In this document: piece after piece, positions 1-61,482 of the stretch
Layout of the letters: the number at the start of each line of letters is the position of its first letter
How positions within the stretch are numbered: the stretch's first letter is position 1
DNA from: a virus
Virus record (IMG/VR): IMGVR_UViG_3300032288_001094
Coordinates: 1-61,482 of that record
Length of the DNA stretch: 61,482 nt
Strand: one strand, 5' to 3'
The notes under the pieces: model-generated
What the model was told of the DNA's origin: nothing
Database searches by the model: none
The model's input: the letters and a program-made list of their open reading frames with translations, nothing else
Made by a program: the position numbers and the translations under genes

Positions 1-38
1 GCTACGGCACTATCGCTTTCTGGGACTTGACCCAATAA
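1..38 (+). CDS. 3' end of virion protein (duplicate of 60021-61397)
   Basis: The first 38 bases are the last codons and TAA stop of the 458-residue virion protein that is complete at 60021-61397. It is a fragment only because the window opens inside the gene. It should not be counted as a separate gene. Confidence 0.95.
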   Translation, partial: YGTIAFWDLTQ

Positions 39-123
39 AATGACCTCAACCTTTTTCTCGGGGGCCGTATGAGCCTTGTTGCACTAGCCAACCACATCGC
101 AAGCAAGGGTCGGGACGACGACA
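1..123. repeat. Terminal direct repeat, left copy
   Basis: Bases 1-123 are identical to bases 61360-61482 by direct reading. The repeat contains the 3' end of one virion gene and the 5' end of the next, so it is an internal piece of a circular or circularly permuted molecule rather than a special end. The simplest explanation is an assembly overlap, giving a unit genome of 61,359 bp. Confidence 0.97.
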
Positions 124-22931: not shown

Positions 22932-24908
22932 TCATCCCTTGGCTAATCCGTAGCGCCTGTTGTAGCCCACATCGGTCTTGAGTGGCAGACCGGGCAGGTA
23001 CGGTACAGGCGCGACCATCTGCGCGAATATCCAAGTCTTCGCGTCTTCTGCTTCTTCCTCTGGCACCACGGCAATCAGTTCATCATGCACCGTGCCTGCC
23101 ACAGGGTACTTCTTCGCAACCCTGAGCATGCCGTCGGTCATGACGCACCGCGCCGTGCCCTGGACAATGTTGTTGGTGACCTTGCCGCCGTACAGACTGA
23201 CGCGCTTGTTGCCGTCAGCGTACGTCCATACGACCTTGCCACCATCGCCCTTGTCCGGGCGGAGATCAGGATACCGCATCGCCATACCACTTGGCAAGAT
23301 GATCTGCTCCTTGCGGAACGTGATGCACTTGTGCTTGTACTCCTTGCCCCGGTACAGGCTATGGTCGATGAGTTCCTGGCACAGGTTCCAGAACGCCACC
23401 ACCTGCTCAGACGCGGCGCGGTACTTGTCGATGATGGCCTTGGCTGCGAGGCAGTGGATGAGTAGCTCCTTGCTTGTGCAGGTGTGGGGAATCTGCTCCA
23501 TGCGCTTGATGTTGTCCTCCCATGATAGGAAGCGGTCTACATCGGCAACCGTCACGCCCAGGGTCTTGGCATCCTCTTTGGTGTAGCGCACGGGGGGTGC
23601 GCCCAGGAACCCGGTGAGAAGCTGCGCAGCGAACGACGCCCAACCCAACTGGTAGCCTGCACCCAGTAGCGCGGACTTGGCGGACTGTCTCTCTACTGGG
23701 TGGCTGTCTTTGGTCATGCCGGGGATGTTGAACATCTGTGCGCCGAAGGCGGCATACGGGTCACCACCGGCACGGAACACGTCTAGTAGAGCCTCGTTAT
23801 CCGAAAGAACCGCAAGGACGCGGGGCTCGATTTGCGAAAGGTCACCAGCAACCAGTACGTGCCCTTGCGGGGCCATGATGGAGTTTCGGAGGAAGCTGCC
23901 ACGTTTCAAGTTCTGCATGTTGATGGCGCTGCCTTTGCTCGCCGTCCACCGGCCAGTGCCTGCGCCGAAGTAACTCAGCGGTACCGGTAACCGGCCACGA
24001 AATGCGATGTCCAGAAAACGCTGCGCTCGCGTACGCTCGCTTGTTGACTTGACCTTGAGTCGGGCCTCGCAGAGGAGTGCAACGTCGTCCCTGTCCCCGT
24101 TGATAAGCGACTGGAATAGCGCATCGTTCTTAGCAAGCGCATAAGTTTCTTTACCTGTCGTCTTGCTAATCTTCGTTGGCGGCTCCACGCCAAGCCCTCG
24201 GAGCGCTTGAGCAAACTGTTCGTTTGAAGCAAGCGAAGCCTCATCCACGCCGAGCCTCTGTAGTAGTCCTTCACGGGCGTTCCTTTCGTCTTCGATGGCC
24301 TCAGCCAACATCACCCGGTCGAGTTCCAACAAGGGGCGGGTGTACATCTTGAGTGTCATGTCGATGAGGCGCAACTCCTTGGCGGGGTAGCCTGGAAGCA
24401 AGCGATCAAAGATGCCCTCGCACAACACCACGTCATGCTTGCAGTACTCGGCCAGTTCTGTCTCCACCTCGAAGGAGATCGACTCCAACATCCCGTCCGT
24501 GCTGTGCACCGCTTGGCCCTTGGGCGGTAGCTCAAAGTCCTCAGCGAGTTTGGCCAGACTGTTGCCCACTTCAATGCCGCGCAGTGCACGCGCCATACTC
24601 AGGGTGTCGAAGATGAAGCAGGGCTGCGCTCCGTAGCGCCAGGACAGGATGGTCACGTCGAACTGCGCGTTGTGCGCCAGTACCGCCGTTGTAGACCAGT
24701 CAATGCCATCCACCCAGGCTTGGATGTCCTTGCCTCGTACCCACACAGGGCGGGCGTCTTCGCCCACTTCCTTCCAACACAGGCCCCACGCCTTGAAGCG
24801 CGGGTCGCGTACGTACTCTTCCGTGGTCATCTTGGAGAGGGTGTATTCCCGTCTGTCCCACGCTGTTTCAAAATCTACTACAAGCACCCTCTTGAAAGGT
24901 AAGCTCAA
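22932..24908 (-). CDS. DNA polymerase, family A with 3'-5' exonuclease
   Basis: This 658-residue T7-like polymerase is complete. Exonuclease motifs are VVDFETAW (Asp12, Glu14), LAHNAQFD (Asn80, Asp84) and YCKHD (Tyr155, Asp159). Polymerase motifs are A, DLSQIEPR (Asp356, Glu361); B, RQSAKSALLGAGYQLG (Arg407, Lys411, Tyr419); and C, VHDEL (His608-Glu610). The tyrosine in motif B is the T7-like residue that allows dideoxynucleotide use. The start is TTG at 24908, overlapping the previous stop as TTGA, with GAGGAG 8 nt upstream. It is the replicative enzyme of this phage. Confidence 0.95.
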   Translation of the reverse strand: MSLPFKRVLVVDFETAWDRREYTLSKMTTEEYVRDPRFKAWGLCWKEVGEDARPVWVRGKDIQAWVDGIDWSTTAVLAHNAQFDVTILSWRYGAQPCFIFDTLSMARALRGIEVGNSLAKLAEDFELPPKGQAVHSTDGMLESISFEVETELAEYCKHDVVLCEGIFDRLLPGYPAKELRLIDMTLKMYTRPLLELDRVMLAEAIEDERNAREGLLQRLGVDEASLASNEQFAQALRGLGVEPPTKISKTTGKETYALAKNDALFQSLINGDRDDVALLCEARLKVKSTSERTRAQRFLDIAFRGRLPVPLSYFGAGTGRWTASKGSAINMQNLKRGSFLRNSIMAPQGHVLVAGDLSQIEPRVLAVLSDNEALLDVFRAGGDPYAAFGAQMFNIPGMTKDSHPVERQSAKSALLGAGYQLGWASFAAQLLTGFLGAPPVRYTKEDAKTLGVTVADVDRFLSWEDNIKRMEQIPHTCTSKELLIHCLAAKAIIDKYRAASEQVVAFWNLCQELIDHSLYRGKEYKHKCITFRKEQIILPSGMAMRYPDLRPDKGDGGKVVWTYADGNKRVSLYGGKVTNNIVQGTARCVMTDGMLRVAKKYPVAGTVHDELIAVVPEEEAEDAKTWIFAQMVAPVPYLPGLPLKTDVGYNRRYGLAKG

Positions 24909-25643: not shown

Positions 25644-25940
25644 TTAGGATTTCTTTGCTTCTTCTACTTCGATCAGCTTGTCGATGTAGTGCCGCGCCTT
25701 CTTGAGGTCTTGGATGCCGCCCTTCAAGCGCCATCGTGAGAGGTACTTGACGGCGTTGCCGTCCAAGTAGCCAAGATTCCAGTCAAGGATAACGTCCCAG
25801 GTTTCGTACTGGTGCGCTTTGTAGTGGGCGCCACCTTCTTGACGAGCGTTTGCTCCTCCTTGTGTGGATTGGTGTGCAGGTTGAAGCGAAGGTCTTGCGC
25901 TGTCCCCTTCGTCGTAAACCGAAACGTGCACGTCTGACAC
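25644..25940 (-). CDS. DUF3310 protein, possible nucleotide kinase
   Basis: This 98-residue protein ends in a clear DUF3310 domain (residues about 39-95): HYKAHQYETWDVILDW, LDGNAVKYLSRWRLKGG and DLKKARHYIDKL. The domain occurs in T7 gp1.7, reported as a nucleotide kinase, so a role in nucleotide metabolism is possible. The start is GTG at 25940, with AAGGAG six bases upstream. Both start and first 70 codons lie inside the Zn-ribbon gene in another frame. The first 38 residues show no domain. Confidence 0.82.
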   Translation of the reverse strand: MSDVHVSVYDEGDSARPSLQPAHQSTQGGANARQEGGAHYKAHQYETWDVILDWNLGYLDGNAVKYLSRWRLKGGIQDLKKARHYIDKLIEVEEAKKS

Positions 25941-26023
25941 TCGTATCTCCTTCGTTTTAGTCCACCAGTTGTGGTTCGGGTTTCAAGGGTTCGGCTACTG
26001 GCGCCGCACTCGGGGCACTGCAT
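25724..26023 (-). CDS. Zinc-ribbon protein overlapping DUF3310 gene
   Basis: This 99-residue frame begins with CPECGASSR (Cys3, Cys6) and RRRYECQTCTFRFTT (Cys29, Cys32), the pattern of NrdR or Ogr/Delta-type zinc ribbons that bind nucleic acid or RNA polymerase. GGAG lies 8 nt before the ATG. The last about 60 residues have no domain and overlap the DUF3310 gene by 217 bp, so the C-terminal tail is probably a by-product of sharing DNA. It could be a transcription regulator. The zinc ribbon is convincing; the true 3' limit is less so. Confidence 0.7.
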   Translation of the reverse strand: MQCPECGASSRTLETRTTTGGLKRRRYECQTCTFRFTTKGTAQDLRFNLHTNPHKEEQTLVKKVAPTTKRTSTKPGTLSLTGILATWTATPSSTSHDGA

Positions 26024-27122: not shown

Positions 27123-27343
27123 GTCTCCTCCTGTTCAATCGGCACATCGCGCCATTCGCCGTGGACTTCCCCGATAGGTATCGGGTCACCGAAGCCCATG
27201 CTGATGGTTCCCATACTGGGCCTCTCCCACCACTGCTGAAGGATGCGTCTTTTTACCGAGCGGAAAACTGATTCGTCCGGGAAGGACTCTACTGGCTCAC
27301 TCACCATGCGCTCCACGAAGCGCAGTCTGTTTGTCGGGGTCAT
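27119..27343 (-). CDS. Small hypothetical protein
   Basis: This 74-residue protein starts at the ATG at 27343, with AGGAG upstream. A basic N-terminal helix (RLRFVERMV; FRSVKRRILQQWWER) is followed by a Gly/Pro-rich segment (GTISMGFGDPIPIGEVHGEW). No domain is recognised. ATGA overlaps link it to neighbours. Confidence 0.66.
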   Translation of the reverse strand: MTPTNRLRFVERMVSEPVESFPDESVFRSVKRRILQQWWERPSMGTISMGFGDPIPIGEVHGEWRDVPIEQEET

Positions 27344-27573
27344 GTCTTCTCTCCTAGTCGTTCGCGCAGGGCGGTGATGGCGTCATTGACGGCTTGCTCG
27401 TCAATCACTCCGGGGTGATCGGCTTCAGTTTCCAACGCCTCCAACGCCTGCCGCAGCAGGGCGGTGTCGTCTTGGGTGTAGAGGGGTGTATGTGGAGGGC
27501 ACCAGTTGGGAGGCGGCTCATCTTTGTAAACGTCGCCGTCGCTATCCATCCACGCCACCGGCTCATTGCTCAT
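27340..27573 (-). CDS. Small conserved phage protein (VAW...PLYT type)
   Basis: This 77-residue protein starts at the ATG at 27573, overlapping the stop of the 39-residue membrane protein as ATGA; GGGGGA precedes it. The N-terminal half (EPVAWMDSDGDVYKDE ... TPLYTQDD) is a pattern seen in many small phage proteins, followed by a helix (LLRQALEALETEAD) and a second helix. Function unknown. Confidence 0.7.
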   Translation of the reverse strand: MSNEPVAWMDSDGDVYKDEPPPNWCPPHTPLYTQDDTALLRQALEALETEADHPGVIDEQAVNDAITALRERLGEKT

Positions 27574-27689
27574 ACCATCCCCCACAAGTAAGTGACCAAC
27601 ACCGCCACCGTTACGAACGGGGCGAGGAACACCACGATCAGGGCAGCAAGCAGCCATGCCGTGGCAAGCCATTCAGTCAGCCATTTCAT
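27570..27689 (-). CDS. 39-residue single-pass membrane protein
   Basis: The ATG at 27689 with GGAG 7 nt upstream gives MKWLTEWLATAWLL followed by AALIVVFLAPFVTVAVLV and TYLWGMV, one long hydrophobic helix. ATGA overlaps occur at both ends: its ATG overlaps the previous stop and its TGA overlaps the next ATG. That makes it a genuine operon member despite its size. It should sit in the inner membrane. Roles such as superinfection exclusion or lysis control are only possibilities. Confidence 0.72.
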   Translation of the reverse strand: MKWLTEWLATAWLLAALIVVFLAPFVTVAVLVTYLWGMV

Positions 27690-28048
27690 GCTGCTGCTCC
27701 TTCTCTCTTGGCTTTTTGCCGTGCGCGGTAGCGTCGATCACGTTCACGCCGAAGCGCACGCTCGTGCTCCAACTTGTCCTCTGACTTCACCCCGAGACTC
27801 GGGGCGATCACAGGGATGTACACCTCCCGATACCACTTGACCACTTCGGGCAACCGATACATCACCCGGTTGGGATGCGTTCGGAACCCGCAGTCCCTAC
27901 CGCGCAAGGAAACTTTCGGCGCACCGTCTACATGCAATGCTTTCGCCAGAGCCTGTGTGGTGATGCCTAGCTTTTCTGCGATCTCCGCAACGGTGTGCAA
28001 TGGCTTGCGCCCCTTACTGCGCTGCATATCAGCGATGTCCCACCTCAT
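27686..28048 (-). CDS. HTH-containing hypothetical protein
   Basis: The ATG at 28048 gives 120 residues. Residues about 20-40 (HTVAEIAEKLGITTQALAKAL) form a convincing helix-turn-helix, followed by RVMYRLPEVVKWYREV and a strongly basic tail (RALRRERDRRYRARQKAKR). It is probably a DNA-binding regulator. The ATG overlaps the stop of the upstream 39-residue membrane gene (ATGA), and the ribosome site is weak, so coupling is likely. Confidence 0.72.
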   Translation of the reverse strand: MRWDIADMQRSKGRKPLHTVAEIAEKLGITTQALAKALHVDGAPKVSLRGRDCGFRTHPNRVMYRLPEVVKWYREVYIPVIAPSLGVKSEDKLEHERALRRERDRRYRARQKAKREGAAA

Positions 28049-28164
28049 GACACCCACCCCGCCCATGCAGCAAACACCACCAGTGCAATGCAGAGGAAGG
28101 CCACCGCGCCGATCAGCGCGAAGTGGCCCAGTGCGTCGATGTCGTCTTCTTCGTACCGATTCAT
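28045..28164 (-). CDS. Second 39-residue single-pass membrane protein
   Basis: The ATG at 28164 with GGAG 7 nt upstream encodes MNRYEEDDIDALGHF then ALIGAVAFLCIALVVFAAWAGWVS, one transmembrane helix at the extreme C-terminus behind an acidic head. It is not similar in sequence to the membrane protein at 27570-27689, but both are 39 residues and flank the same HTH gene. The stop overlaps the HTH ATG. Confidence 0.72.
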   Translation of the reverse strand: MNRYEEDDIDALGHFALIGAVAFLCIALVVFAAWAGWVS

Positions 28165-28175
28165 GGGCCTTCTCC

Positions 28176-28979
28176 TTACTGGGGGATGGGGTAGGACAGC
28201 TTCTCGGGCAGCACCAACTTGCTGACGGCTTGCCCACGGCAGAACAACTGAATGGCGCGCTCTACCTTCTTGGCTGTCTCCAGGCGTGCAGCGCCGATCC
28301 ACGCACCACCCGCAGCCTGCAGCAGGTACTCGCGCAGGCGGATGGCAGCGTTCTCGTGCGGGCCACTGATCTCGCCAGTAGCCATGATCTCACCGAAGCG
28401 CTTGAGCTTGTCTCGGGATTCGCCCGCTTGCTCGGCGCAGAAGTAGCACGCTGTGATTGCCGCAGTCGTCAGGAACCTGCGACGCTGCGCGGACAGTGAG
28501 TGCGCAAACCGCAGGGGCTCCGAGTACTTCTCGATGTAGTCCTGTAACTGCGACACCGACTTCTGGTGCACGTCACTACCCATGTTGCCGAGCAGCACAC
28601 GCGCTATGGCCACGATGTTGCGGTCGATCCAGTCCTCACCACCCGCGATCTTGATGGCGTCATGCGCCTGCCGTGGAATGTGTTGGTCGATCATCTGCGC
28701 AGCTAGGCGCGGGACGTTGCGCGTGACGAGGAACGTCACCGGCTTGTTGTACACCGTCACTGCGAACAGGCGATGCTGCCCATCGGCAAGCGTGCCGTCC
28801 TCGTAGAAGGCGATGCCCTGGTGCGACACCTGCCACCGGCCCTCCGACATATCCTTGGCGTAGCGATGCGCGATGTCCTCTCGCATGTGGCGGTTGTTGG
28901 TGTTCTGGGCTAGCCACTGGTGGGCCAGGGCGGGTGAGACTGAGACGAACTCGGTCGTGATCTTTGCTTTTCTTGCCAT
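28176..28979 (-). CDS. ParB/DGQHR-type domain protein
   Basis: This 267-residue protein has GRWQVSHQGIAFYEDG and LADGQHRLFAV (DGQHR at 66-70), the signature of ParB-like N-terminal domains that bind or hydrolyse nucleotides. The rest is helical. Phage members of this group are common but poorly understood; no HTH or partner ParA is seen, so plasmid-type partitioning is unlikely. AGGAG precedes the ATG and overlaps the preceding stop. Confidence 0.8.
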   Translation of the reverse strand: MARKAKITTEFVSVSPALAHQWLAQNTNNRHMREDIAHRYAKDMSEGRWQVSHQGIAFYEDGTLADGQHRLFAVTVYNKPVTFLVTRNVPRLAAQMIDQHIPRQAHDAIKIAGGEDWIDRNIVAIARVLLGNMGSDVHQKSVSQLQDYIEKYSEPLRFAHSLSAQRRRFLTTAAITACYFCAEQAGESRDKLKRFGEIMATGEISGPHENAAIRLREYLLQAAGGAWIGAARLETAKKVERAIQLFCRGQAVSKLVLPEKLSYPIPQ

Positions 28980-28989
28980 GTTGTTTCTC

Positions 28990-29142
28990 CTAAAAGAGTG
29001 CTGGTGGTAGTCCCGCCACCGGATCGGGTTTTGGTTGTCGCTTGGGTTTGTATGGACGGCCCTTCCACGTTGGGAAGGGCCAGACTTTGGGCGGCGGGTC
29101 TAGTGCTTCTTCTGCACGACGATTGGTTTTGCGAGTAGCCAT
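28990..29142 (-). CDS. Small basic Pro-rich protein
   Basis: This 50-residue protein starts at the ATG at 29142. Its composition is extreme: RKTNRRAEE at the start, then DPPPKVWPFPTWKGRPYKPK and a Pro-rich end. It overlaps the preceding gene out of frame by 43 nt. Its stop TAG supplies part of the ribosome site of the ParB-like gene. The own ribosome site (GGTGA) is weak, so moderate confidence. Confidence 0.5.
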   Translation of the reverse strand: MATRKTNRRAEEALDPPPKVWPFPTWKGRPYKPKRQPKPDPVAGLPPALF

Positions 29143-29261
29143 CGGTCACCCAGTTGACGCACAGACTTGACCCACTGCCGTTGGTTGTGGCGCTGTGTAT
29201 GGATGGGTACGTAGTCCACCGCAAACAACTGACGCACCATCTTCAGTGCTTTGGTTTTCAT
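29100..29261 (-). CDS. Small basic hypothetical protein
   Basis: The ATG at 29261, overlapping the previous stop as ATGA, has a strong GAGGAGGTGA site upstream. It encodes 53 residues beginning MKTKALKMVRQLFAVDYVPI, basic throughout, ending KPIVVQKKH. No domain is recognised. Confidence 0.62.
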   Translation of the reverse strand: MKTKALKMVRQLFAVDYVPIHTQRHNQRQWVKSVRQLGDRWLLAKPIVVQKKH

Positions 29262-29431
29262 TGGTTCACCTCCTCGATAGATTCGACAGCCCAGTCAGCG
29301 TCGCCGTGCGCCCAGTCTGGATCGTTCTCAATCTCATCAAGCGCCAACTCTTCGGCCTCATCTTGAGATTCAGCATCGACCATCACCGTGACGTAGGACG
29401 TGCGGCACAGTTCAACAGCAAAGCGCTTCAT
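29258..29431 (-). CDS. Small acidic hypothetical protein
   Basis: The ATG at 29431 with GGAGGG upstream gives 57 residues. It has a beta-strand start (FAVELCRTSYVTVMVDA) followed by a very acidic helix and tail (QDEAEELALDEIENDPDW). This alpha/beta layout occurs in small phage proteins of unknown role, and could mimic DNA or bind a basic partner. ATGA overlap downstream. Confidence 0.68.
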   Translation of the reverse strand: MKRFAVELCRTSYVTVMVDAESQDEAEELALDEIENDPDWAHGDADWAVESIEEVNQ

Positions 29432-29433
29432 AC

Positions 29434-29874
29434 TCAAACCCTCCCAAAGAAGAACGCCACGAAGCGTTGCTTCCACGTCAGGTTGTAGTGCGGCTGCGGT
29501 ACAGGCATCTCAATAAATTTGATCTCGCCCAATGTCGGCGGCGCCTTCAGCGCTTCCATCTCTTCTGCCGACACAATCGGCGCTGCAGGTACAGCCGCTG
29601 CCTTCTTCGAGTACTTGCCACTCTTCACATACTTGCGCTTGGGTACGATTTTGGCCAGATCGCGCTCGCGCTTGGCCTTTGCCTTGGCTTTCTTCTGTCG
29701 GCTACGCTCGTAGGCCATGACCCCGTACACGTACTGCGGCTTGCACCCCACATCGAGCGCCACTTGCGTGGGCGGTACACCACTGGCCAACAGTTCTCGA
29801 ATCATCGCGGACTTGTTGATCTTGGTGGGGGTGATTGTGGTGACGTTGTTGGTGGTTTGTTGAGTTTGGTTCAT
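29434..29874 (-). CDS. Helix-turn-helix protein with C-terminal aromatic tail
   Basis: The ATG at 29874 has AGGAG 7 nt upstream. The 146-residue product has an HTH at about residues 25-50 (IRELLASGVPPTQVALDVGC followed by KPQYVYGVMAYER). A very basic middle (KKAKAKAKRERDLAKIVPKRK) and a C-terminal WKQRFVAFFFGRV follow. It is probably a DNA-binding regulator. A hairpin (29897-29918) lies just upstream, so it may begin its own expression unit. Confidence 0.74.
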   Translation of the reverse strand: MNQTQQTTNNVTTITPTKINKSAMIRELLASGVPPTQVALDVGCKPQYVYGVMAYERSRQKKAKAKAKRERDLAKIVPKRKYVKSGKYSKKAAAVPAAPIVSAEEMEALKAPPTLGEIKFIEMPVPQPHYNLTWKQRFVAFFFGRV

Positions 29875-29896
29875 GCTATTTCTCCTGTTGATTTGA

Positions 29897-29918
29897 GACT
29901 CGGGTCTTTGCCCGAGTC
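29897..29918 (-). terminator. 8-bp GC hairpin between operon segments
   Basis: GACTCGGG pairs with CCCGAGTC around a 6-nt loop, between the M20-like peptidase stop (29956) and the HTH gene start. The leftward tail TCAAATC is not a clean T-run, so it may act as a processing or partial termination site. Confidence 0.45.
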
Positions 29919-29955
29919 CAAGTTTAGACAATGTATCGTTGGGTTGCAAGCCCCC

Positions 29956-31080
29956 TCAGTGCATCTGAACTCCTGCAAACAAATCTTCCAAAATGTCACG
30001 GGCAGGTTGCCCGTCGTACAGCATCTCCTCAGCCCAGGCCAACACCTCATCGGTCAGCCGGTTCTTGTTCATCTGGCGCTTGGCCACCACTGGGTCTTCG
30101 GGATAGATGTGCTCGGCAATCAGGTTGATGAGCGTGGTGGGGCGTCCAAACGCGGCATCGTCGAGCGCTTCCTGCAACTCGACCTCAAGGGTGTACTCGG
30201 GAATGAACGCGCCCTTGACCTGATGCACACCATCCAGACCATCGTCGCCCACAGCGCCCCAGTCGTAGCCCTTGTTCCAACCCCAGTCGTCCACATCCTT
30301 GACGCTCGGGTCACGGTCAGTGGGCAGCGCATCCCAGTCGATGGCAGCGCAGGCATCGGCAAGGAACTGCAGATACACCACGTCGATCTTCTCCTTGTCA
30401 CCATGCGCACCCTCGTAGCCCACGCTGATGTTGGTGCACTCGGGGATCAGGCCGGTGAACTCTGCGGTATCGGTGTAAACACCAGTGTTGTCAGGCGAGA
30501 GGAACAGCGCGTCGTATGACGCAGCGTTGAGCGCATCGGCCAGGGCCATAGCGAAGGTGTCGGAGCAGCAGCGCCCACCGAACTGGTGCGTAATCACGCT
30601 GTCGATACCCTTGCGGTCGAAGGCAATGGCGCGGTCGAACTGCAGCAGCGTGGCGTCGTCGTAGTCGGCCAGGAACTTGGCACCGATACCGCCGCACTCC
30701 TCACCCTGACTGAAGATGTAGTAGCCAGGGACACCGCTGTGCATGAGGTGCATCAGCACGGCCACACCTGCACCATCGTCAGCGCCCAGGCATTGATCCT
30801 TCATGCCTGCACTCCAGTGCGTATCGGACTTATCCACCACGTTGTCGCCGCCTGTGCGGTGCACCGTGTCCACGTGAGCGATGAAGAGGGTTCTGTTATC
30901 TGTACTTTCTCTGGCATCCACGTGCATGTTGCCTGCTGCATCAATGCTGCAACCCAGGTGCTCGGGCAGGTTGTTCATCAGCCACATCAGCAGCGTGGCA
31001 ACCTCGGGCGATCCATGTGGGCGGCGCAGGGACAGCGCAGCGTCGAGGGTCTTGAACAGGATGGTGTTGGTCTGTGTCAT
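29956..31080 (-). CDS. M20/M28-like zinc peptidase
   Basis: This 374-residue protein starts at ATG 31080 (AAGGAG upstream). It has the ordered metal ligands of the di-zinc exopeptidase clan: LFIAHVDTVH (His69, Asp71), LGADDGAG (Asp101), FSQGEECGG (Glu127-Glu128), AIAFDRKG (Asp155) and VGYEGAHG (His226). The catalytic set therefore looks intact. Enzymes of this clan cleave peptides or deacylate amino compounds. A cytosolic exopeptidase in a phage early region is uncommon, and its substrate cannot be read from sequence. Confidence 0.86.
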   Translation of the reverse strand: MTQTNTILFKTLDAALSLRRPHGSPEVATLLMWLMNNLPEHLGCSIDAAGNMHVDARESTDNRTLFIAHVDTVHRTGGDNVVDKSDTHWSAGMKDQCLGADDGAGVAVLMHLMHSGVPGYYIFSQGEECGGIGAKFLADYDDATLLQFDRAIAFDRKGIDSVITHQFGGRCCSDTFAMALADALNAASYDALFLSPDNTGVYTDTAEFTGLIPECTNISVGYEGAHGDKEKIDVVYLQFLADACAAIDWDALPTDRDPSVKDVDDWGWNKGYDWGAVGDDGLDGVHQVKGAFIPEYTLEVELQEALDDAAFGRPTTLINLIAEHIYPEDPVVAKRQMNKNRLTDEVLAWAEEMLYDGQPARDILEDLFAGVQMH

Positions 31081-31100
31081 GGTGTTTCTCCTTGTGTTGA

Positions 31101-32420
31101 TCATTCAGTTTCTTCTTCGCCGCGCAACTCGGCGATCTCGTCGGCGTCATCGTCCTCGTGGTACCACTGGCCGTCGATCTCTACGCACTCATCACGCAGG
31201 TCGTACTCGTCGTTGTGCTTGCACACAATGCGTCGGTCACCATCGGGATACCACTCGCCGTCACGGTCTACGAATACGCAGTCGCTCTGCTCTTGGTAAT
31301 CACCATCGACATCACACACGATGTCGTTGTCGTGCAGGTAGTCACAGTGGTAGTAGTTGCCGTTGACCTCGACTGACTCGTCGTAGGTGAACCAGTACTC
31401 GTTGCCACTGCGTCCGTAGCCATACACGAACTCGTTGTCACGGCAAGAAGGACAGATGCGGTAGTCCTCGTGATACCCGGCGTAGGTGGCGTCGTCCTCG
31501 TCGAACGAGTCGCCGCAGTGCTCGCACGTCGCAGACTCCGCCTCGTCTGGCTCACCGCCCGTGTTGTTGCAGGTGTACTCAGCCTCGCAATCCTCGACGA
31601 TGTGTAGGAACTTGCTGCCGTCAGGCTCCAGGCCCATACGCACACCCTGCTCATCACCATCGAGGTAGGGCGCGAGGAACGACTCGCTCCACCCGTTGCG
31701 GCGCTTGATGTACGCGAAGCGTGAGCCGTTCCACCCGCTGTCCTTCTCGTAGCCCTGCGCCCTGAGCCATGCCTCCAGTTGCTCGTCGGCGTTGCTGTAG
31801 CCACCATTGCGGTCACGTTTGTAGGAACGCACGAAGCGCTTGCCGTTGGCATCCTCGCAGCACAGGCAGCGGCCACAGATCACGCCGTCAGCCTCACGGC
31901 GCAGCGCCAAGTGCCACCCATACTCGGGCTTGTACACGCTGTACGGATGCTCGTCGATGTCGCTGTTCTCCCACGACATGCACGACTTGGGCCCCTGCTG
32001 CACACCCTGCACGATCTCCTCGACTGTGCGAGCGAAGTACATGGAAGACTTCAGTGGTGAGTGCAGGGCCACGAGATCACGGACGTAGTGATCAGGCAGC
32101 ATCGGGAAGTGGCGCATGAGGTAGCGCCCCATCGTTGTCGTCACCACCCGGTCGGCCTCACCTGCACGCTCGTCACGGGTGTAGGCAATCTTGAACGGGT
32201 CGGACTCGGACGTGTGCGGCCACTCAAGCAGGAGCAGGTGCCAGTCAGCAGGGCGGCACAGGCGCATCGCTGCGTCCACGATGGGGTGCAGGGGGAAAGC
32301 GTGTCGTTGGCGGTTGAACCAACGGCGGTATTTGGCCACGACCCACGACGCATCACGGAACACAATGCCCATCAGCACCTCGTCGTAGTCGGGGTCAAGT
32401 TTCTCAAGGTTGTAAGACAT
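31101..32420 (-). CDS. Large Zn-ribbon, acidic/aromatic repeat protein
   Basis: This 439-residue protein starts at ATG 32420 (GGAGG upstream). The N-terminal 220 residues form an unrecognised domain rich in Trp, Arg and His. Near residues 298-325 is CEHCGD ... CPSC, a zinc ribbon. The last 120 residues are Tyr/Trp/Asp-rich, with loosely repeated units such as VNGNYYHCDY, RDGEWYPDGD and IDGQWYHEDD. The acidic tail could mimic nucleic acid. It lies between the DUF932 gene and the peptidase. Function unknown. Confidence 0.8.
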   Translation of the reverse strand: MSYNLEKLDPDYDEVLMGIVFRDASWVVAKYRRWFNRQRHAFPLHPIVDAAMRLCRPADWHLLLLEWPHTSESDPFKIAYTRDERAGEADRVVTTTMGRYLMRHFPMLPDHYVRDLVALHSPLKSSMYFARTVEEIVQGVQQGPKSCMSWENSDIDEHPYSVYKPEYGWHLALRREADGVICGRCLCCEDANGKRFVRSYKRDRNGGYSNADEQLEAWLRAQGYEKDSGWNGSRFAYIKRRNGWSESFLAPYLDGDEQGVRMGLEPDGSKFLHIVEDCEAEYTCNNTGGEPDEAESATCEHCGDSFDEDDATYAGYHEDYRICPSCRDNEFVYGYGRSGNEYWFTYDESVEVNGNYYHCDYLHDNDIVCDVDGDYQEQSDCVFVDRDGEWYPDGDRRIVCKHNDEYDLRDECVEIDGQWYHEDDDADEIAELRGEEETE

Positions 32421-32458
32421 GATTGAAACCTCCAGTTGAAAGGAACTACAGAAAGGAC

Positions 32459-32499
32459 GGGGAGCCGAAGCTCCCCACGAGATGGGGAGAAATCTCCCC
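32459..32499 (-). terminator. Tandem hairpins, including palindrome copy 1
   Basis: The stop of the DUF932 gene is followed by GGGGAGAAATCTCCCC (32484-32499) and then GGGGAGC-CGAA-GCTCCCC (32459-32476). On the leftward strand the distal one has a TTCG loop. Together they probably terminate or punctuate the transcript before the next gene, though no T-run is present. The first is one of six copies of the same palindrome in this region. Confidence 0.6.
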
Positions 32500-32505
32500 A
32501 AACTT

Positions 32506-34455: not shown

Positions 34456-35115
34456 TCATTGCTGCCAGAAAAGAAACCACGGGTCGCGGGCAGCACTTCG
34501 CTTGCCGTGGATGGGTGTGCAATATGTGTACAGGTATTTCAGCCGGGTTAACTCCTCTCGGGTTATATAGGTCAGTGGATTGGCTTCCTCCATCGTGGGT
34601 TTTATTGGCGTGCCCTTGAGTTTTGATTTGGACGTGGCGGTATCTCGTATTTGTTTGAGCAGGGTGGCGTAATAACCGAAGAAGGTTTCGTGGGGTTTGT
34701 ATTCGGCCTGGTTTTTATTGGCCACCATCGACCTGTACCGCAGGTAGGTGTTGCTTGCCCACTGGAACTCGTCACGCACGGCGTTGAGCAGGGCGGCGTT
34801 CCAGTTCTCGCGTCTGGTGCGAGCGTGGGCTGCATAGGTTCGGTCAGGCATGACGCTGTTCTTGAAGTGATCGCGTTCGCGCCGGTCGATGGCGTCGAGG
34901 TAGACAGGCGACACCCTGCTGTGGGAGGTGTGCCGGGCTTGTTCACGTTCGCGCTTGGTCATCGCCTTGTAGGGTTTGGGCGGACAGCACGCGTTGCAGG
35001 AGGATTCGAGGCGCAGCTTGCGCCCTGACCAACGCCGGAAGAAGCGCATGGGGAGGTCACGAGAGCACAGCGTGCAGCGCTGCGTGGTGGGTGTGGAGAG
35101 GGTGTTGAGTGTCAT
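34456..35115 (-). CDS. Hypothetical protein with N-terminal zinc finger
   Basis: This 219-residue basic protein begins with CTLCSRDLPMRFF (Cys14, Cys17) and CNACC (Cys40, Cys43/44), a probable four-Cys zinc finger. The helical remainder is rich in Arg and Tyr. The ATG at 35115 has no Shine-Dalgarno sequence, unusual here, and is the first gene left of the large inverted repeat at 35141-35440. It could be an origin-binding or regulatory protein, from position only. Confidence 0.72.
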   Translation of the reverse strand: MTLNTLSTPTTQRCTLCSRDLPMRFFRRWSGRKLRLESSCNACCPPKPYKAMTKREREQARHTSHSRVSPVYLDAIDRRERDHFKNSVMPDRTYAAHARTRRENWNAALLNAVRDEFQWASNTYLRYRSMVANKNQAEYKPHETFFGYYATLLKQIRDTATSKSKLKGTPIKPTMEEANPLTYITREELTRLKYLYTYCTPIHGKRSAARDPWFLFWQQ

Positions 35116-35140
35116 GGTAGTGTCAGTTTGGTGTAAGGGT

Positions 35141-35440
35141 TTGGGTAGCTGACCGGCTCCTCACTAGGTCTGGGCGCAACATTGGGTAAGAGCAAGTCGT
35201 TGATTCTACTCAGGGTGCAGCTACTACTACCCAACTACCCATTTTTTTGGGCATACACAACCGGCAAAGTTTTTTTAAGAAAAAAGCTGGCGTTCTTGGA
35301 CGTACAACAACAAATCTTTTTGGTGTACCTCTATATATATGGGTAGTTGGGTAGTAGTAGTAGTAGTTCGTTACAAAACAACGGCTTACGCTTACCCAAT
35401 GTTGCGCCCGTAGGTAGTGAGGAGGTGGGTAGCTACCCAA
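35141..35440. repeat. 101-bp imperfect inverted repeat; candidate replication origin
   Basis: The 384-bp gene-free gap 35116-35499 holds two 101-bp arms (35141-35241 and 35340-35440) that are inverted copies; I count 77 of 101 matches. They flank a 98-bp AT-rich core with T7 and A6 runs and an internal stem (CCGGC with GCTGG). Each arm carries the heptamer TTGGGTA three times in full, and the right arm ends in the perfect palindrome GGGTAGCTACCC. Iterons, symmetry and an AT-rich core suggest an origin, but a regulatory RNA or recombination site is possible. Confidence 0.7.
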
Positions 35441-35473
35441 AACCTAGGGTAAACCCTGACAAAAGTTGGACAC

Positions 35474-36891: not shown

Positions 36892-37542
36892 TTGCACGCT
36901 ACCCGGTACCCACTATACACTCCGCCCAATTACGGACGCAAGCCCCGCATCGAAATGCTTGACCACCTGCTTGATTTTCAGCCCCCGATGGCCACTCTTG
37001 ACGAGGTGGTACCGTTGGACAAGGCGACTTCGGATGAAATCCTGGCCGCTCAAGTATCCACCACAGACTGGCTCAAGGAGATGGGCGCCACCAACGCCGA
37101 AGAATCCCAACAGGCAGTAGCCGCATCCCAAGCGCGGCAGGCTTTTCAGGCCATGACTACCCAGTCACCGGAGGAACAGCGCAAGGCGCTCATCCAGTTG
37201 AAGACTCCACCCGCTGTGCGGCACCTCACGGGCATGTTGGTGGCCTATGACTGGGCGTTTGTGGAGCAGGCCAAGGAGCTTCGCGGCTACGCCGTGAGCC
37301 AAATCCTTGAAGAAACCAAGCACCCCGACGCAAAAATCCGGCTGAAAGCGCTCGATATGCTCGGGCGGGTCACTGAAGTGGCGCTGTTCACGGAGCGGGT
37401 GGAGGTCAAGAAGACCGATCTGTCGGATGCCGAGATCGAAGCCAAGATCAAGGAGAAGATCAACCGCTTCATGGGGGTTACGGACGTCATAGATATCGCG
37501 TCCGAGGACGAAACCACCGCACAAACCCCCGATGAGACTTGA
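36892..37542 (+). CDS. terS: Terminase small subunit
   Basis: This 216-residue protein recognises DNA for packaging and recruits the large subunit. The helical core (LRGYAVSQILEETKHPDAKI, LKALDMLGRVTEVALFTER, DAEIEAKIKEKINRFMG) matches small terminase subunits of podoviruses from water. The large subunit starts inside its last codons. The start is uncertain: TTG 36892 has AAGG 6 nt upstream, while the only ATG (36955) has no ribosome site. A perfect AAGGAG at 36858 has no start codon within range. Confidence 0.82.
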   Translation: MHATRYPLYTPPNYGRKPRIEMLDHLLDFQPPMATLDEVVPLDKATSDEILAAQVSTTDWLKEMGATNAEESQQAVAASQARQAFQAMTTQSPEEQRKALIQLKTPPAVRHLTGMLVAYDWAFVEQAKELRGYAVSQILEETKHPDAKIRLKALDMLGRVTEVALFTERVEVKKTDLSDAEIEAKIKEKINRFMGVTDVIDIASEDETTAQTPDET

Positions 37543-39070
37543 TCAACTCACGTCTCTGACACCGCGCGAGCTTTCGGCCATCCAGGCCGCGCTCCCAACC
37601 CTGTCTCTGCAGGAAAAAATCGAGCTTTTCGACGCTCTGGAGGAAAAAGAGCGCCGGATGTCCAGAAATCTGGCCAAAACCAACCTCATCGGCTTCGCCA
37701 AGCACGTCTATCCGGGGTTTAAGGTGGGGCCCCACCACAAAAAGCTCGCTCGCATCTTCGAGGACGTGCTCGCGGGCAAGAAAAAGCGCGTGATCGTCAA
37801 CATCGCGCCCCGCATGGGCAAGTCAGAGTTCAGTTCCTACTTGTTTCCGGCGTACTTCTTGGGTAAATTTCCCGAGAAGAAGATCATCATGGGCACGCAC
37901 ACAGCGGGCCTGTCTGAAGACTTTGGTCGAAGGATTCGCAACTTGGTTGCGAGTGAGGAGTATGCCGAACTCTTCCCAGAAACCATCATCGCCGAGGATC
38001 AGAAGGCCGCTGGGAAGTGGTCTACATCCAAGGGTGGGCAGTACTACGCTGCGGGTGTTGGTGGCGCTCTGGCTGGTCGCGGTGCTGATCTATTCGTTAT
38101 TGATGATCCTCACTCTGAGCAAGATGTAAAGATCAACAGCCGCCTCGCGTTCGACACGGCGTGGAACTGGTTCCAAACAGGCCCGCTGCAGCGCTTGATG
38201 CCGGGTGGTGCCATCATCGTCATCATGACCCGGTGGTCGCTACTGGACCTTACCGGACGGCTCATCGACTACCAGACCAAGAACCCCGACGCCGACCAGT
38301 GGGAGATCGTGGAACTGCCCGCGATCCTGAACGAGGGCACGGAGAACGAGAAGTCTCTGTGGCCAGACCAGTGGCCACTAGACCAACTCAAATCTAAGAA
38401 GGCCAACCTCGACCCCAGGTTCTGGAACGCGCAGTACATGCAGCAGCCCACGGCAGACTCCTCTGCCATCGTGGGGCGGCAGCACTGGCGGTTATGGCCA
38501 AAAGACGATCCGCCCCAGTGCGAGTACGTGATCCAGTCCTGGGACACGGCGTTCGAGACAAAGACCACCTCCGACTACAGCGCCTGCACCACCTGGGGTG
38601 TTTGGTACAACGAGGAAGAGGGCGACGCCCCGCAGTTGATCCTGCTCGATGCGTTCAAAGACCGGATGGCGTTTCCCGAGTTGAAACAGATCGCGCTCAA
38701 GCATTACAAGGAGTGGGAGCCCGACGCGTTCATCGTGGAAAAGAAGGCCGCAGGCGCGCCGCTGATCTATGAACTGAGGAACATGGGCATCCCTGTGGCT
38801 GAGTACACACCGTCACGCGGCAACGACAAGGTGGTGCGGATGAACGCGGTGGCAGACCTGTTCTTCTCTGGGAAAGTCTGGGCGCCCGACACGCGGTGGG
38901 CCCGGGAGGTGATCGAGGAGATGGCGGCGTTCCCAGTAGGCGAGAACGACGACTACGTGGATACTACGACCCAAGCCCTGCTGCGCTTCCGCCAGGGCGG
39001 GTTCATTAGCCTGGACTCTGATGAGGCCGAGCAGGGCTACTTCACGCCACGCAAAGCGGCGTACTACTGA
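37532..39070 (+). CDS. terL: Terminase large subunit
   Basis: This 512-residue packaging motor has an ATPase with Walker A APRMGKS (92-98), Walker B LFVIDDPHSE (Asp191-192) and coupling motif MTRWS. The RNase H-like nuclease has QSWDTAFE (Asp338), Asp348 and DDYVDTTTQAL (Asp473-477). All key residues are present. It overlaps the small subunit by 11 nt. It cuts concatemers and pumps DNA into the prohead through the portal encoded next. Confidence 0.96.
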   Translation: MRLDQLTSLTPRELSAIQAALPTLSLQEKIELFDALEEKERRMSRNLAKTNLIGFAKHVYPGFKVGPHHKKLARIFEDVLAGKKKRVIVNIAPRMGKSEFSSYLFPAYFLGKFPEKKIIMGTHTAGLSEDFGRRIRNLVASEEYAELFPETIIAEDQKAAGKWSTSKGGQYYAAGVGGALAGRGADLFVIDDPHSEQDVKINSRLAFDTAWNWFQTGPLQRLMPGGAIIVIMTRWSLLDLTGRLIDYQTKNPDADQWEIVELPAILNEGTENEKSLWPDQWPLDQLKSKKANLDPRFWNAQYMQQPTADSSAIVGRQHWRLWPKDDPPQCEYVIQSWDTAFETKTTSDYSACTTWGVWYNEEEGDAPQLILLDAFKDRMAFPELKQIALKHYKEWEPDAFIVEKKAAGAPLIYELRNMGIPVAEYTPSRGNDKVVRMNAVADLFFSGKVWAPDTRWAREVIEEMAAFPVGENDDYVDTTTQALLRFRQGGFISLDSDEAEQGYFTPRKAAYY

Positions 39071-47958: not shown

Positions 47959-48923
47959 GTAACGCAACTTTAGGAACGATGGGCGGTACTGGCGCTATCG
48001 ACCCTTTGACCGGACGCATTGACCTCGGTACCGGTAGCAACAGCTACGCTCCTGGGTATGGGCCCCGTGTAAACCCTATGCCGTTTCGTGGCATGCCTGC
48101 GCGGAATCCGCAAGACCGTATGCCTGTGTCGAAGCCGGGTGTGTTTGGGCCTCAACTTGCCGAACTAATTGGGCGACTTCCCCCAACTAATCCAGAACAA
48201 GCCAATGTCATGCTTACGGGTTCCGAGCAGCTAAACAACAGTGGGCGAGCTGTGGCTAATCCACCGACGCCGGGTGGGGTGGATATGGCCGGGTTAAAGC
48301 CGTCCGATATTATGGGGGCGCTGGGACAGCCAGGACGGGGAACTTCGCCGCAACAGTGGAGAAACTTTGTTGGCTCCCTTGACCAGCCTGCTCCTCCGGC
48401 GCAACAACCCCAGTTCAACCCCTTCATGGGTGGCTTGGGCGGTCTGTTCAATCAGATGGGCGGCTACGGCATGGGCTACAACCCCTACATGGGCGGCGGC
48501 TTCGGCGGCTTTGGTGGTGGCTTTGGCGGCGGCTTCAACCCCTACATGGGCGGCGGCTTCAACCCCTACATGGGCGGCGGCTTCAACCCCTACATGGGCG
48601 GCGGCTTCGGCGGCGGTCAGCAGGGCTTCGGCGGCGGCTTCAACCCCTATATGGGCGGCAATAGCTTCGGCGGCTTTGGTGGTGGCCAGGGCTTTGGTAG
48701 CTTCGGCGGCGGCTTCAACCCCTATATGGGCAGTGGTCAAGGCTTTGGCGGTGGTCAAGGCTTTGGCGCTAGTTTCGGCGGCGGTCAAGGATTTGGTGGG
48801 TATAACTCGCAAGGCGGCGCGAGCCCGTTTGGTGGTGGGTTCGGTGGCGGGTTCGGTAGCCGTGGATTTATGAATCAGATGGGTGGCGGCTTCGGCGGCG
48901 GTTTTGACCCCTCGATGATTTAA
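47955..48923 (+). CDS. Glycine-rich FNPYMGGG-repeat protein
   Basis: This 322-residue protein starts at ATG 47955, overlapping the previous stop as ATGA. The first 150 residues are Pro/Gly-rich but non-repetitive. Residues about 155-320 are nearly all Gly, Phe, Asn, Tyr and Met, with six [FY]NPYMG units and many GGFGGG blocks. The composition resembles self-associating low-complexity proteins. It lies between head proteins and the connector; perhaps a flexible virion protein. Function is open. Confidence 0.82.
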   Translation: MSNATLGTMGGTGAIDPLTGRIDLGTGSNSYAPGYGPRVNPMPFRGMPARNPQDRMPVSKPGVFGPQLAELIGRLPPTNPEQANVMLTGSEQLNNSGRAVANPPTPGGVDMAGLKPSDIMGALGQPGRGTSPQQWRNFVGSLDQPAPPAQQPQFNPFMGGLGGLFNQMGGYGMGYNPYMGGGFGGFGGGFGGGFNPYMGGGFNPYMGGGFNPYMGGGFGGGQQGFGGGFNPYMGGNSFGGFGGGQGFGSFGGGFNPYMGSGQGFGGGQGFGASFGGGQGFGGYNSQGGASPFGGGFGGGFGSRGFMNQMGGGFGGGFDPSMI

Positions 48924-53213: not shown

Positions 53214-55808
53214 ATGCCTACCTCATACACCTCCCTCTTGGGTCTGGCTCTGCCTGTCACGGGCGAACTGTCCGGCACCTGGGGCGACACGGTTAACGAC
53301 TACATCACCAAGTATCTGGACGCGGCTGTCGCAGGCGCTCAGACCATCAGCGGCTCTCAAACGGCAGTCACTCTGTCCGTGACCACGGCATCTAGCCTGA
53401 CCCAAGTCGGCTCCGGGGCAACGGGCTCTGCTCAGTACCAGATCATCAACTGCACGGGCAACCCGGCAGGTCTGCTGACGATCACCGCTCCTGCGGCGAG
53501 CAAGGTGTACTTGGTCCTGAACGCGACTTCGACTTCTCAGTCGGTCAAGGTGGTGGGTGCAGGCCCGACCACGGGCGTGACGATGGTGTCAGGCGAGAAG
53601 GCACTGATTGCCTGGAACGGTTCGGACTTCGTGAAGGTGGCAACTACTGCGCCCGGTGCGGCGGCAGGATCGAACACCCAAGTCCAGTACAACAGCAGCG
53701 GAAACTTGGCGGGTTCTGCCAACCTGACGTTTGACGGCACGACCCTCACGGCAGCGAACTTTGCTGATTCCTCCCTGACCTCTGGCCGGGTGGTGTACGC
53801 CACCACGAGCGGGAACCTGACCGACAGCGCAAACCTGCTGTACTCCGGCACTGACCTGACCGTCTACGGCATCACAGTCGGCCGTGGCGCGGGTGCTGTG
53901 TCCACCAACACTGCGGTGGGTGCGAGTGCGTTGGCGGCAAATACGACAGGGGCGTTTAACTCGGCCTATGGGCAACAGGCTCTTTCCGCGAATACCTCGG
54001 CCCAGTTCAACAGTGCGTTTGGCTTTAGAAGCCTTCGTGATAACACGACTGGAGCATCAAATAGTGCGTTTGGGTATGCGGCACTGATACAAAACACCAC
54101 GGGCAACTACAACGTGGCGATGGGTGACTCGGCACTGTTCTCCAACACCACTGCATCAAGTAACACCGCTGTTGGTTATCGGGCGGCATATAGCAACACT
54201 ACCGGCATCTACAACGCGGCCTTTGGGGACTCAGCCCTCTATTTCAACACCAGTGCTTCCAACAACACTGCTGTTGGTTATCAGGCGGTGTATGCCAATA
54301 CGACCGGCGTTCAAAACACGGGGCTTGGAGCATACGCACTTCGTTCAAACACCGCATCCAGCAACTCAACTGCTGTTGGTTATGTAGCCCTTTACAACTC
54401 AACCGGAGCGGACAACACCGCTGTAGGTAGTTACGCCGGATATTCAACAACTACCGGGCTCTCCAACGCCATGTTTGGTAGTTCCACGATGCAGTTCAAC
54501 ACGACTGGATCGTATAACTCCGCTTTTGGCGCTCAAAGCCTCGCTTCAAATACAACCGGGGCGGAAAATTCTGCTTTTGGGTATGGAGCCTTTGCGCTAA
54601 ACACCACGGGTAACTACAACACTGCGTTAGGCAAGGATGCACTTCGCTCCAACACCACCGCTTCCAACAACACGGCTGTTGGGTATCAGGCGGGGTATAC
54701 AAACACGACGGGCAGCGTCACGGCACTTGGATACTACGCCGCACGTTCCAATACAACCGGCACCATTACTGCTGTTGGTGTCTCGGCCCTGCTCAGCAAC
54801 ACGACGGGTACCGGAAATACCGGGGTTGGCACGCTGGCCGGGTACAACAACTCCACCGGAGACAACAACACCGCTGTTGGTTACTACGCCGCGTACAGCA
54901 CCGGAAACGCATCAGGCGTAACCGCAATTGGCTCTCTCGCCATGTACATCGGTGGCGGCACTCCTACGGGATCAACCGCTGTCGGTGCTCAGGCGCTGTA
55001 TCAGACTTCCTCTGCATACAACACCGCTGTCGGTTATCAGGCGGGATATGCACAAACGACTGCTCAATGGAACACGCTGATTGGCGCGAATGCAGGAGAT
55101 TCGATTACCACTGGCAGTTACAACGTCTGTGTTGGAAGGGGGGCGGGTGACGCACTTACGACAGGTGATGCAAACACCTTTGTCGGCTCAGGTGGAATTA
55201 CTGGCGGGGCGGGTTCTGCCATCACAACCGGTGCCAAAAACACCATCATTGGTTGCTACACCGGCAACCAAGGTGGCCTCGACATCCGCACCTCAAACAA
55301 CTATGCGGTTATTTCTGATGGTGATGGAAACCGTCTGATCAGCACCGCAGCAGGCCAGACCTTGGCGCTTGGCAACAGTGCAGTTCCCAATTCCGGCACC
55401 GGCATCACCTTCCCCGCCACGCAGTCTGCATCGTCTGACGCGAACACGTTGGATGATTATGAGGAGGGGACTTGGACTCCTGCGGACGCAAGCGGCGCAG
55501 GATTGACGTTCACCAGTGTCACAGCGCAGTACACCAAGATTGGCAACATGGTGTACATCAACGCAACGCTGACGTACCCGTCAACCGCCGATGCGTCGCA
55601 GGCGAAGATTTCCGGCTTGCCGTTTGCAACAACCAATGTGGGGCAACTGATCTATTGCAACCCGGGAGTTACTACCACAGGATCTGGTCAAGGTTGGATT
55701 CCAAACAGTTCAACTACTGCAACTCTTGTAGGGCAAGCAAACGCAGCGAGGACAAACGCAAACCTAAGCACTTTGACGCTTTATTTCACCGGGGCATACC
55801 CCGTATAA
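53214..55808 (+). CDS. Tail fibre / receptor-binding protein
   Basis: This 864-residue protein has a short N-terminal part (LPVTGELSGTWGDTVNDYI) that probably attaches to the tail, then about 450 residues of repeats with the core NTAVGY and [NT]TTG. These resemble the left-handed coil of YadA-type head domains. A C-terminal jelly-roll-like domain (YEEGTWTP ... YTKIGNMVYINATLTYP) closes it, as in many fibres. AGGAG precedes the ATG. It should bind the host surface. Confidence 0.88.
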   Translation: MPTSYTSLLGLALPVTGELSGTWGDTVNDYITKYLDAAVAGAQTISGSQTAVTLSVTTASSLTQVGSGATGSAQYQIINCTGNPAGLLTITAPAASKVYLVLNATSTSQSVKVVGAGPTTGVTMVSGEKALIAWNGSDFVKVATTAPGAAAGSNTQVQYNSSGNLAGSANLTFDGTTLTAANFADSSLTSGRVVYATTSGNLTDSANLLYSGTDLTVYGITVGRGAGAVSTNTAVGASALAANTTGAFNSAYGQQALSANTSAQFNSAFGFRSLRDNTTGASNSAFGYAALIQNTTGNYNVAMGDSALFSNTTASSNTAVGYRAAYSNTTGIYNAAFGDSALYFNTSASNNTAVGYQAVYANTTGVQNTGLGAYALRSNTASSNSTAVGYVALYNSTGADNTAVGSYAGYSTTTGLSNAMFGSSTMQFNTTGSYNSAFGAQSLASNTTGAENSAFGYGAFALNTTGNYNTALGKDALRSNTTASNNTAVGYQAGYTNTTGSVTALGYYAARSNTTGTITAVGVSALLSNTTGTGNTGVGTLAGYNNSTGDNNTAVGYYAAYSTGNASGVTAIGSLAMYIGGGTPTGSTAVGAQALYQTSSAYNTAVGYQAGYAQTTAQWNTLIGANAGDSITTGSYNVCVGRGAGDALTTGDANTFVGSGGITGGAGSAITTGAKNTIIGCYTGNQGGLDIRTSNNYAVISDGDGNRLISTAAGQTLALGNSAVPNSGTGITFPATQSASSDANTLDDYEEGTWTPADASGAGLTFTSVTAQYTKIGNMVYINATLTYPSTADASQAKISGLPFATTNVGQLIYCNPGVTTTGSGQGWIPNSSTTATLVGQANAARTNANLSTLTLYFTGAYPV

Positions 55809-61397: not shown

Positions 61398-61482
61398 AAT
61401 GACCTCAACCTTTTTCTCGGGGGCCGTATGAGCCTTGTTGCACTAGCCAACCACATCGCAAGCAAGGGTCGGGACGACGACA
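61360..61482. repeat. Terminal direct repeat, right copy
   Basis: The exact copy of bases 1-123. Joining the two copies makes a 61,359-bp circle in which all boundary genes are intact. Confidence 0.97.
61428..61482 (+). CDS. 5' end of virion protein (duplicate of 69-2576)
   Basis: The ATG and first codons (MSLVALANHIASKGRDDD) of the 835-residue virion protein, cut by the window end. The complete gene is at 69-2576. Confidence 0.95.
   Translation, partial: MSLVALANHIASKGRDDD

Follow-up and report, generated by a model that had tools for sequence, protein, structure and literature searches.

Beside the packaging genes of the window, by which we mean the whole 61,482-nucleotide stretch of DNA analysed here, lies an inverted repeat that spans 310 bases. 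The features of the locus are given below, with positions numbered from the first letter of the window.

34456–35115, minus strand: F2, a protein of 219 amino acids with an N-terminal CxxC..CxxC zinc ribbon and a long helical hairpin; candidate binder of the repeat
35136–35242, no strand: left arm of the inverted repeat (arm alignment score 93, compared with at most 32 in shuffles)
35141–35154, no strand: outer word of the left arm (TTGGGTAGCTGACC), mirrored in the right arm
35182–35188, plus strand: middle word of the left arm, TTGGGTA
35193–35205, minus strand: IHF-consensus site of the left arm, AATCAACGACTTG; the genome has just one other exact match
35221–35241, minus strand: inner word pair of the left arm, CTACTACTACCCAACTACCCA
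35243–35338, no strand: core, AT-rich (65% A+T) and asymmetric, with a ATATATAT run at its right-arm end
35339–35445, no strand: right arm of the inverted repeat, from the arm alignment
35340–35366, plus strand: inner word pair of the right arm, TGGGTAGTTGGGTAG, followed by TAG repeats
35376–35388, plus strand: mirrored IHF-like site of the right arm, AAACAACGGCTTA, with one mismatch
35393–35399, minus strand: middle word of the right arm (TACCCAA)
35426–35440, no strand: outer word of the right arm (palindromic TGGGTAGCTACCCAA)
36892–37542, plus strand: F1, probable terminase small subunit (TerS), assigned by its position directly before terL in 46 of 55 loci; overlaps terL
37532–39070, plus strand: terminase large subunit, terL (PF17289, phrog_38)

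The inverted repeat is confirmed as real: the best local alignment of its arms, which leaves a 96-bp core between them, scores 93, compared with 28 at the second-best place in the 61-kb window and with a mean of 18.2 and a maximum of 32 in 300 dinucleotide shuffles of the gap. The first-pass annotation of this DNA had placed the arms at 35141–35241 and 35340–35440 with 77 of 101 positions matching; we recovered the same count, and the alignment extends the arms further. The three copies of TTGGGTA that it reported in each arm are present (TTGGGTA/TACCCAA at 35141, 35182 and 35228, and at 35347, 35393 and 35434), and the shorter TACCCA/TGGGTA occurs nine times in the repeat where 0.24 copies are expected; the TTGGGTAG/CTACCCAA words are absent from the rest of the window genome. 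Its perfect palindrome, GGGTAGCTACCC, is found at 35427 in the right arm only, the left arm reading GGGTAGCTGACC, whereas in close relatives both arms carry the perfect form. The middle is AT-rich, as claimed, with 65% A+T in the core versus approximately 47% in the locus set. No open reading frame in the gap is supported; a 76-codon TTG frame (35210–35440) has no PHROG family match.

The ends of the window (1–123 and 61360–61482) are an exact 123-bp direct repeat, which indicates that the window covers an entire circular genome, 61,359 bp in length. Several other regions of this genome were also noted. One open reading frame of 3039 codons occupies 6120–15239 (plus strand), and the comparably giant gene of relatives is only patchily similar to it. 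The leftward gene block at 27340–32501 finds few matches, if any, among close relatives and forms a variable accessory region. Coding tandem repeats are present at 48474–48686 (Gly-rich, 24/57-bp units) and at 54093–54288 (102-bp unit), where the gene concerned has virion/tail-spike matches.

With the adjacent zinc-ribbon protein as query, a first search returned four contigs with the same element, and the terminase and a DUF932 protein as queries gave more than 200 further loci, which were scanned for inverted repeats over 8 kb on either side of terL. In dozens of loci a strong repeat is present, almost always 1.8–2.95 kb upstream of terL and mostly 270–310 bp in size, whereas on the downstream side of terL no inverted repeat in the same scan scored above 34; that side is the fair control, because the selection of repeats itself imposed limits on position and a minimum score. 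We retained 49 non-redundant repeats, of which 42 were used for statistics. Within a phage the two arms match with a median score of 50, compared with 15–18 for arms taken from different phages, and the letters of the arms have been replaced many times with the mirror relation restored each time. Thus the symmetry that the first-pass annotation expected to be conserved in relatives is kept, but its heptamer is replaced by other words in the same layout. The element is conserved in dozens of distantly related phages, with its place and size kept and its letters almost wholly changed, and it seems to be hitherto undescribed; a literature search found no prior description, and the DNA of the region has no match among named phages. 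An invertible segment was considered and rejected, the orientation of the core being identical in aligned relatives. Two distant named relatives, DSL-LC04 (L226:469–688) and 023Pt_psg01 (L225:2536–2758), carry gene-free inverted repeats close to the gene for the terminase small subunit; at approximately 220 bp these are shorter than those of the main group.

From the outside inward, each arm has its outer and second words, then the mid-arm motif and the inner word, after which comes the core. The repeated words, of which there are four to nine per repeat in many loci, vary by phage: TACCCA in the window, CTACCA/GTGGTA in L041, CGTCCA in L105, ACCCAC in L294 and GGTCCA in L074; CGTCCA reaches seven copies and ACCCAC eight. 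As in iteron origins, a replicon-specific word is clustered at one site in multiple copies, and an AT-rich region lies beside the words: across 41 loci the A+T content of the core reaches 0.76–0.81 at +20 to +60 bp from the centre, beside the right arm, against a background of 0.47.

Two kinds of mid-arm motif occur, each mirrored at ±78–113 bp from the centre. The first, AATCAANGACTTA, fits the IHF consensus WATCAANNNNTTR; this refined form was found 14 times inside repeats and once outside, and the plain consensus 19 times inside and 24 times outside, a 35-fold enrichment. The alternative motif, AACCCGCATGNATNCTGG, occurs 24 times inside repeats and never outside. Mirrored IHF consensus sites are present in 13 of the 42 repeats; the remainder have the alternative motif or none that we recognised. 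In the complete relatives G001 and G002 the mirrored pair constitutes the sole IHF matches in a genome of approximately 60 kb; in the window genome there are two matches in total, one of them within the repeat, and the one-mismatch site of the right arm is an exact consensus in the close relative L045 (AATCAACAGCTTA). The WATCAANNNNTTR sites occupy fixed positions, as in an IHF-dependent nucleoprotein complex, and IHF binding itself is predicted from the consensus. It had been suggested that the heptamers were selected whilst the arm middles diverged; the repeated words are indeed under selection in both arms, but what occupies the middles is a conserved motif, either IHF-like or the alternative one. 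DnaA boxes show no clear enrichment in the repeats (two sites). A further motif, TAGTAGTAG, which we take to be reminiscent of DnaA-trios, is present in 5 of 42 repeats and absent elsewhere in those loci.

Arms of 100 bp are able to pair, and the repeat might act as an RNA or single-stranded DNA hairpin with a long stem and a 96-nt loop. On the plus strand, G.T oppositions between the arms outnumber A.C oppositions (251 versus 129; p 4e-10 at first), as a paired stem would predict. However, this excess is a matter of strand composition, because non-pairing mismatches carry the same bias (125 G.G versus 33 C.C), and the composition predicts a G.T/A.C ratio of approximately 1.75 where 1.95 is observed. 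Moreover, where the arms differ, the changes group together between identical blocks and show an almost random mix of types (380 transitions, 565 transversions), and an Rfam search gave no match. We regard the hairpin as very improbable, and the transcribed RNA of other function, which the first-pass annotation had named as a refutation of its own proposal, is not supported once composition is allowed for in the mismatch test. The clustered, near-random differences, together with the compositional origin of the G.T excess, point instead to protein sites on double-stranded DNA.

In 42 of 52 loci the gene immediately to the left of the repeat is that of F2, which points outward from the repeat and usually starts 20–60 bp from it. 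Members of the F2 family have a common helical part, with the N-terminal CxxC..CxxC ribbon present or absent, and AlphaFold predicts the long helical hairpins with confidence (pLDDT 85.6 for the AF2 model of F2). Apart from two uncharacterised phage proteins, searches with F2 yielded nothing beyond weak zinc-ribbon matches to the HNH/endonuclease VII families; a PDB search with the hairpin fold returned no match, and protein-family, PDB and fold searches found no Pfam, PHROG or PDB relative among known initiators (Rep, O, pi). The first-pass annotation had described F2 as a zinc-finger gene without a ribosome site; it has no obvious Shine-Dalgarno sequence in the window, although a clear one is present in many relatives. 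Of the two flanking genes that it had offered as possible binders, synteny and joint exchange favour the zinc-ribbon protein, whilst the 65-residue Arg-rich open reading frame is found in the closest relatives only. Elsewhere in the window, a small protein (25724–26023, minus strand) has NrdR-like and Ogr/Delta-like zinc-ribbon matches and is possibly a phage transcription activator.

Comparison of closely related phages reveals that F2 and the repeat are exchanged together as a cassette. In the L260/L261 pair (TerL 98% identical, F2 34%), the L279/L246 pair (TerL 97%, F2 22%) and the L270/L272 pair (TerL 98%, TerS 99%, F2 24%) the repeats are unrelated, whereas in L261/L268 (TerL 97%, F2 96%) they are alike. 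Over 40 loci, when TerL is controlled for, repeat similarity correlates with F2 similarity at a partial rank coefficient of 0.46 (permutation p 0.001); for repeat and TerL similarity, with F2 controlled for, the coefficient is 0.14. Likewise, the polymerase, primase/helicase, SNF2 helicase and nuclease of the window are 75–95% identical to those of G001, whereas F2 is 40% identical and the repeat is different. What this joint exchange demonstrates is a cassette rather than binding, because neighbours can move together without binding and because a further gene family, F3, changes too. F3 is a leftward family of 126–290 amino acids, found in 34 loci in the interval that separates the repeat from terS (for example L294:8519–8944, minus strand); it also diverges when the F2–repeat cassette is swapped, and might read the repeat as well. 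The presence of the zinc ribbon is suggestively associated with TACC words (p 0.001, unadjusted), but the association is not significant on the tree, which holds only three independent pairs.

The same comparisons bear on whether the repeat is a packaging start (cos/pac), its words being bound by the terminase small subunit or by F2 with IHF. Such a role would suit its constant site, upstream of terS by approximately 1.5 kb and of terL by 2.2 kb, and the resemblance of the F2 zinc ribbon to those of phage HNH and endonuclease VII proteins; lambda cosB similarly combines sites for its small subunit, gpNu1, with an IHF site near the terminase genes. Unlike cosB, however, the phage repeat is symmetric, which would imply packaging in both directions, and it does not track TerS: in L270/L272 TerS stays constant whilst the repeats are unrelated, so that TerS is not the reader and a TerS-read packaging site is rejected. 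The distance of contig ends from the repeat also varies, and we consider a packaging start improbable.

The main rival to an origin is a transcriptional or immunity switch, in which F2 would be an autoregulator, the words its operators, and looping by IHF would shut or switch the leftward operon; cassette exchange would then reflect selection for different superinfection specificities. In agreement with this, F2 begins 20–60 bp from the repeat in most loci, 11 of 49 loci have F2-directed −10-like boxes beside the left arm (compared with 4% of random stretches), and the cassettes are swapped in the manner of immunity regions. However, no sigma-70 promoter was found in the window repeat, most loci lack outward boxes, and the asymmetric AT-rich core and constant 300-bp mirror layout exceed the needs of a simple operator, whose TTGGGTAG/CTACCCAA words would moreover have no further copies in the window genome. 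None of the 11 genomes encodes a tyrosine integrase (PF00589), which makes lysogenic immunity unlikely and also led us to reject an attP site. Overall, a control region appears rather unlikely as the principal function.

A centromere-like or other nucleoprotein site (for partition, as a replication-factory anchor or as a host-factor decoy) would also have a symmetric layout and a dedicated protein alongside, in resemblance to P1 parS, where a central IHF site is accompanied by partition-protein boxes in both arms. Against it, the 11 genomes contain neither an integrase nor a ParB-family protein; the absence of PF02195 rejects a ParB/parS centromere as such, and together these absences leave no sign of a prophage state requiring partition. 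We consider this role quite improbable.

We put at about one half the probability that the repeat is a replication origin bound by F2 and host IHF, a reading that draws on sequence comparison. The first-pass annotation had proposed a candidate origin; after testing, a protein-bound origin fits better, its function in replication being what we infer. Of the readings weighed here an origin explains most, namely the replicon-specific words, the IHF sites, the AT-rich core, the dedicated neighbour, the single copy and the phage's own replication enzymes (a family A polymerase, a DUF927 primase/helicase and an SNF2 helicase). In the mechanism that we propose, copies of F2 would attach to the words that recur in the two arms (TACCCA in the window, others elsewhere), and IHF, or in some phages a binder of the alternative motif, would bend each arm approximately 90 bp from the centre. 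Bending would fold the two arms together and place strain on the AT-rich core, which would open where a TATATA stretch adjoins the right arm, admitting the phage primase/helicase (15362–18259) and DNA polymerase (22932–24908), so that replication would start at the repeat. F2, starting 20–60 bp away, is probably autoregulated by the repeat.

The cumulative-skew check suggested for the origin gave a mixed outcome: in 8 of 11 genomes the minimum of the detrended GC skew falls no more than 2.2 kb from the repeat, but the window and its two nearest complete relatives, G001 and G002, are exceptions, and the measure is confounded because gene direction switches approximately 1.2 kb from the repeat. 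Against an origin, F2 appears, on its sequence and predicted fold, to be unlike known initiators; DSL-LC04 has a similar repeat beside a different protein, an HNH protein that is not an F2 homologue; and the two DnaA-box sites amount to no clear enrichment.

In the iteron origins of pSC101 and R6K an initiator and IHF open an AT-rich region (PMC5043065), and in herpes simplex virus (HSV) oriS inverted initiator boxes lie around an AT-rich spacer (PMC12543377). The phage repeat resembles HSV oriS/oriL and its UL9 system in having inverted boxes in two arms that flank an AT-rich spacer, but its arms are much larger, with several words each and a mid-arm IHF-like site, and F2, unlike the origin-binding protein UL9, is not a helicase and has no common descent with it. 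With the pSC101 and R6K gamma iterons, and with lambda ori and its O protein, the repeat has in common specific repeated words, IHF, an AT-rich opening region and a dedicated adjacent gene; however, its words lie in mirror arms around the core rather than in a single one-sided array, and it is without a Rep-type initiator or clear DnaA-box enrichment. The ori and crr of phage P4, which encodes its own primase/helicase, also contain short repeated words in both orientations, and are read by the primase-helicase alpha protein. In our phages, by contrast, the primase/helicase is 75% identical between the window and G001 whilst the repeat changes, and it is F2 that changes with the repeat. Because F2 is no known initiator and we infer the origin role, the element is not filed as an iteron or HSV-type member. 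It could, we suggest tentatively, represent an undescribed class of phage origin, in which a mirror-symmetric, IHF-bent platform of approximately 300 bp is swapped together with its zinc-ribbon/coiled-coil reader F2, a new family.

For most environmental lytic phages the origins and initiators are not known, and here a single recognisable element flags a candidate origin and a candidate reader across a large phage group from many metagenomes. The diversified specificity raises the question of its cause, in co-infection or superinfection interference; presumably, the swapping of cassettes is an escape from cross-interference between co-infecting phages. The natural F2–repeat swaps between phages with 97–98% identical TerL provide ready-made pairs for tests of specificity.
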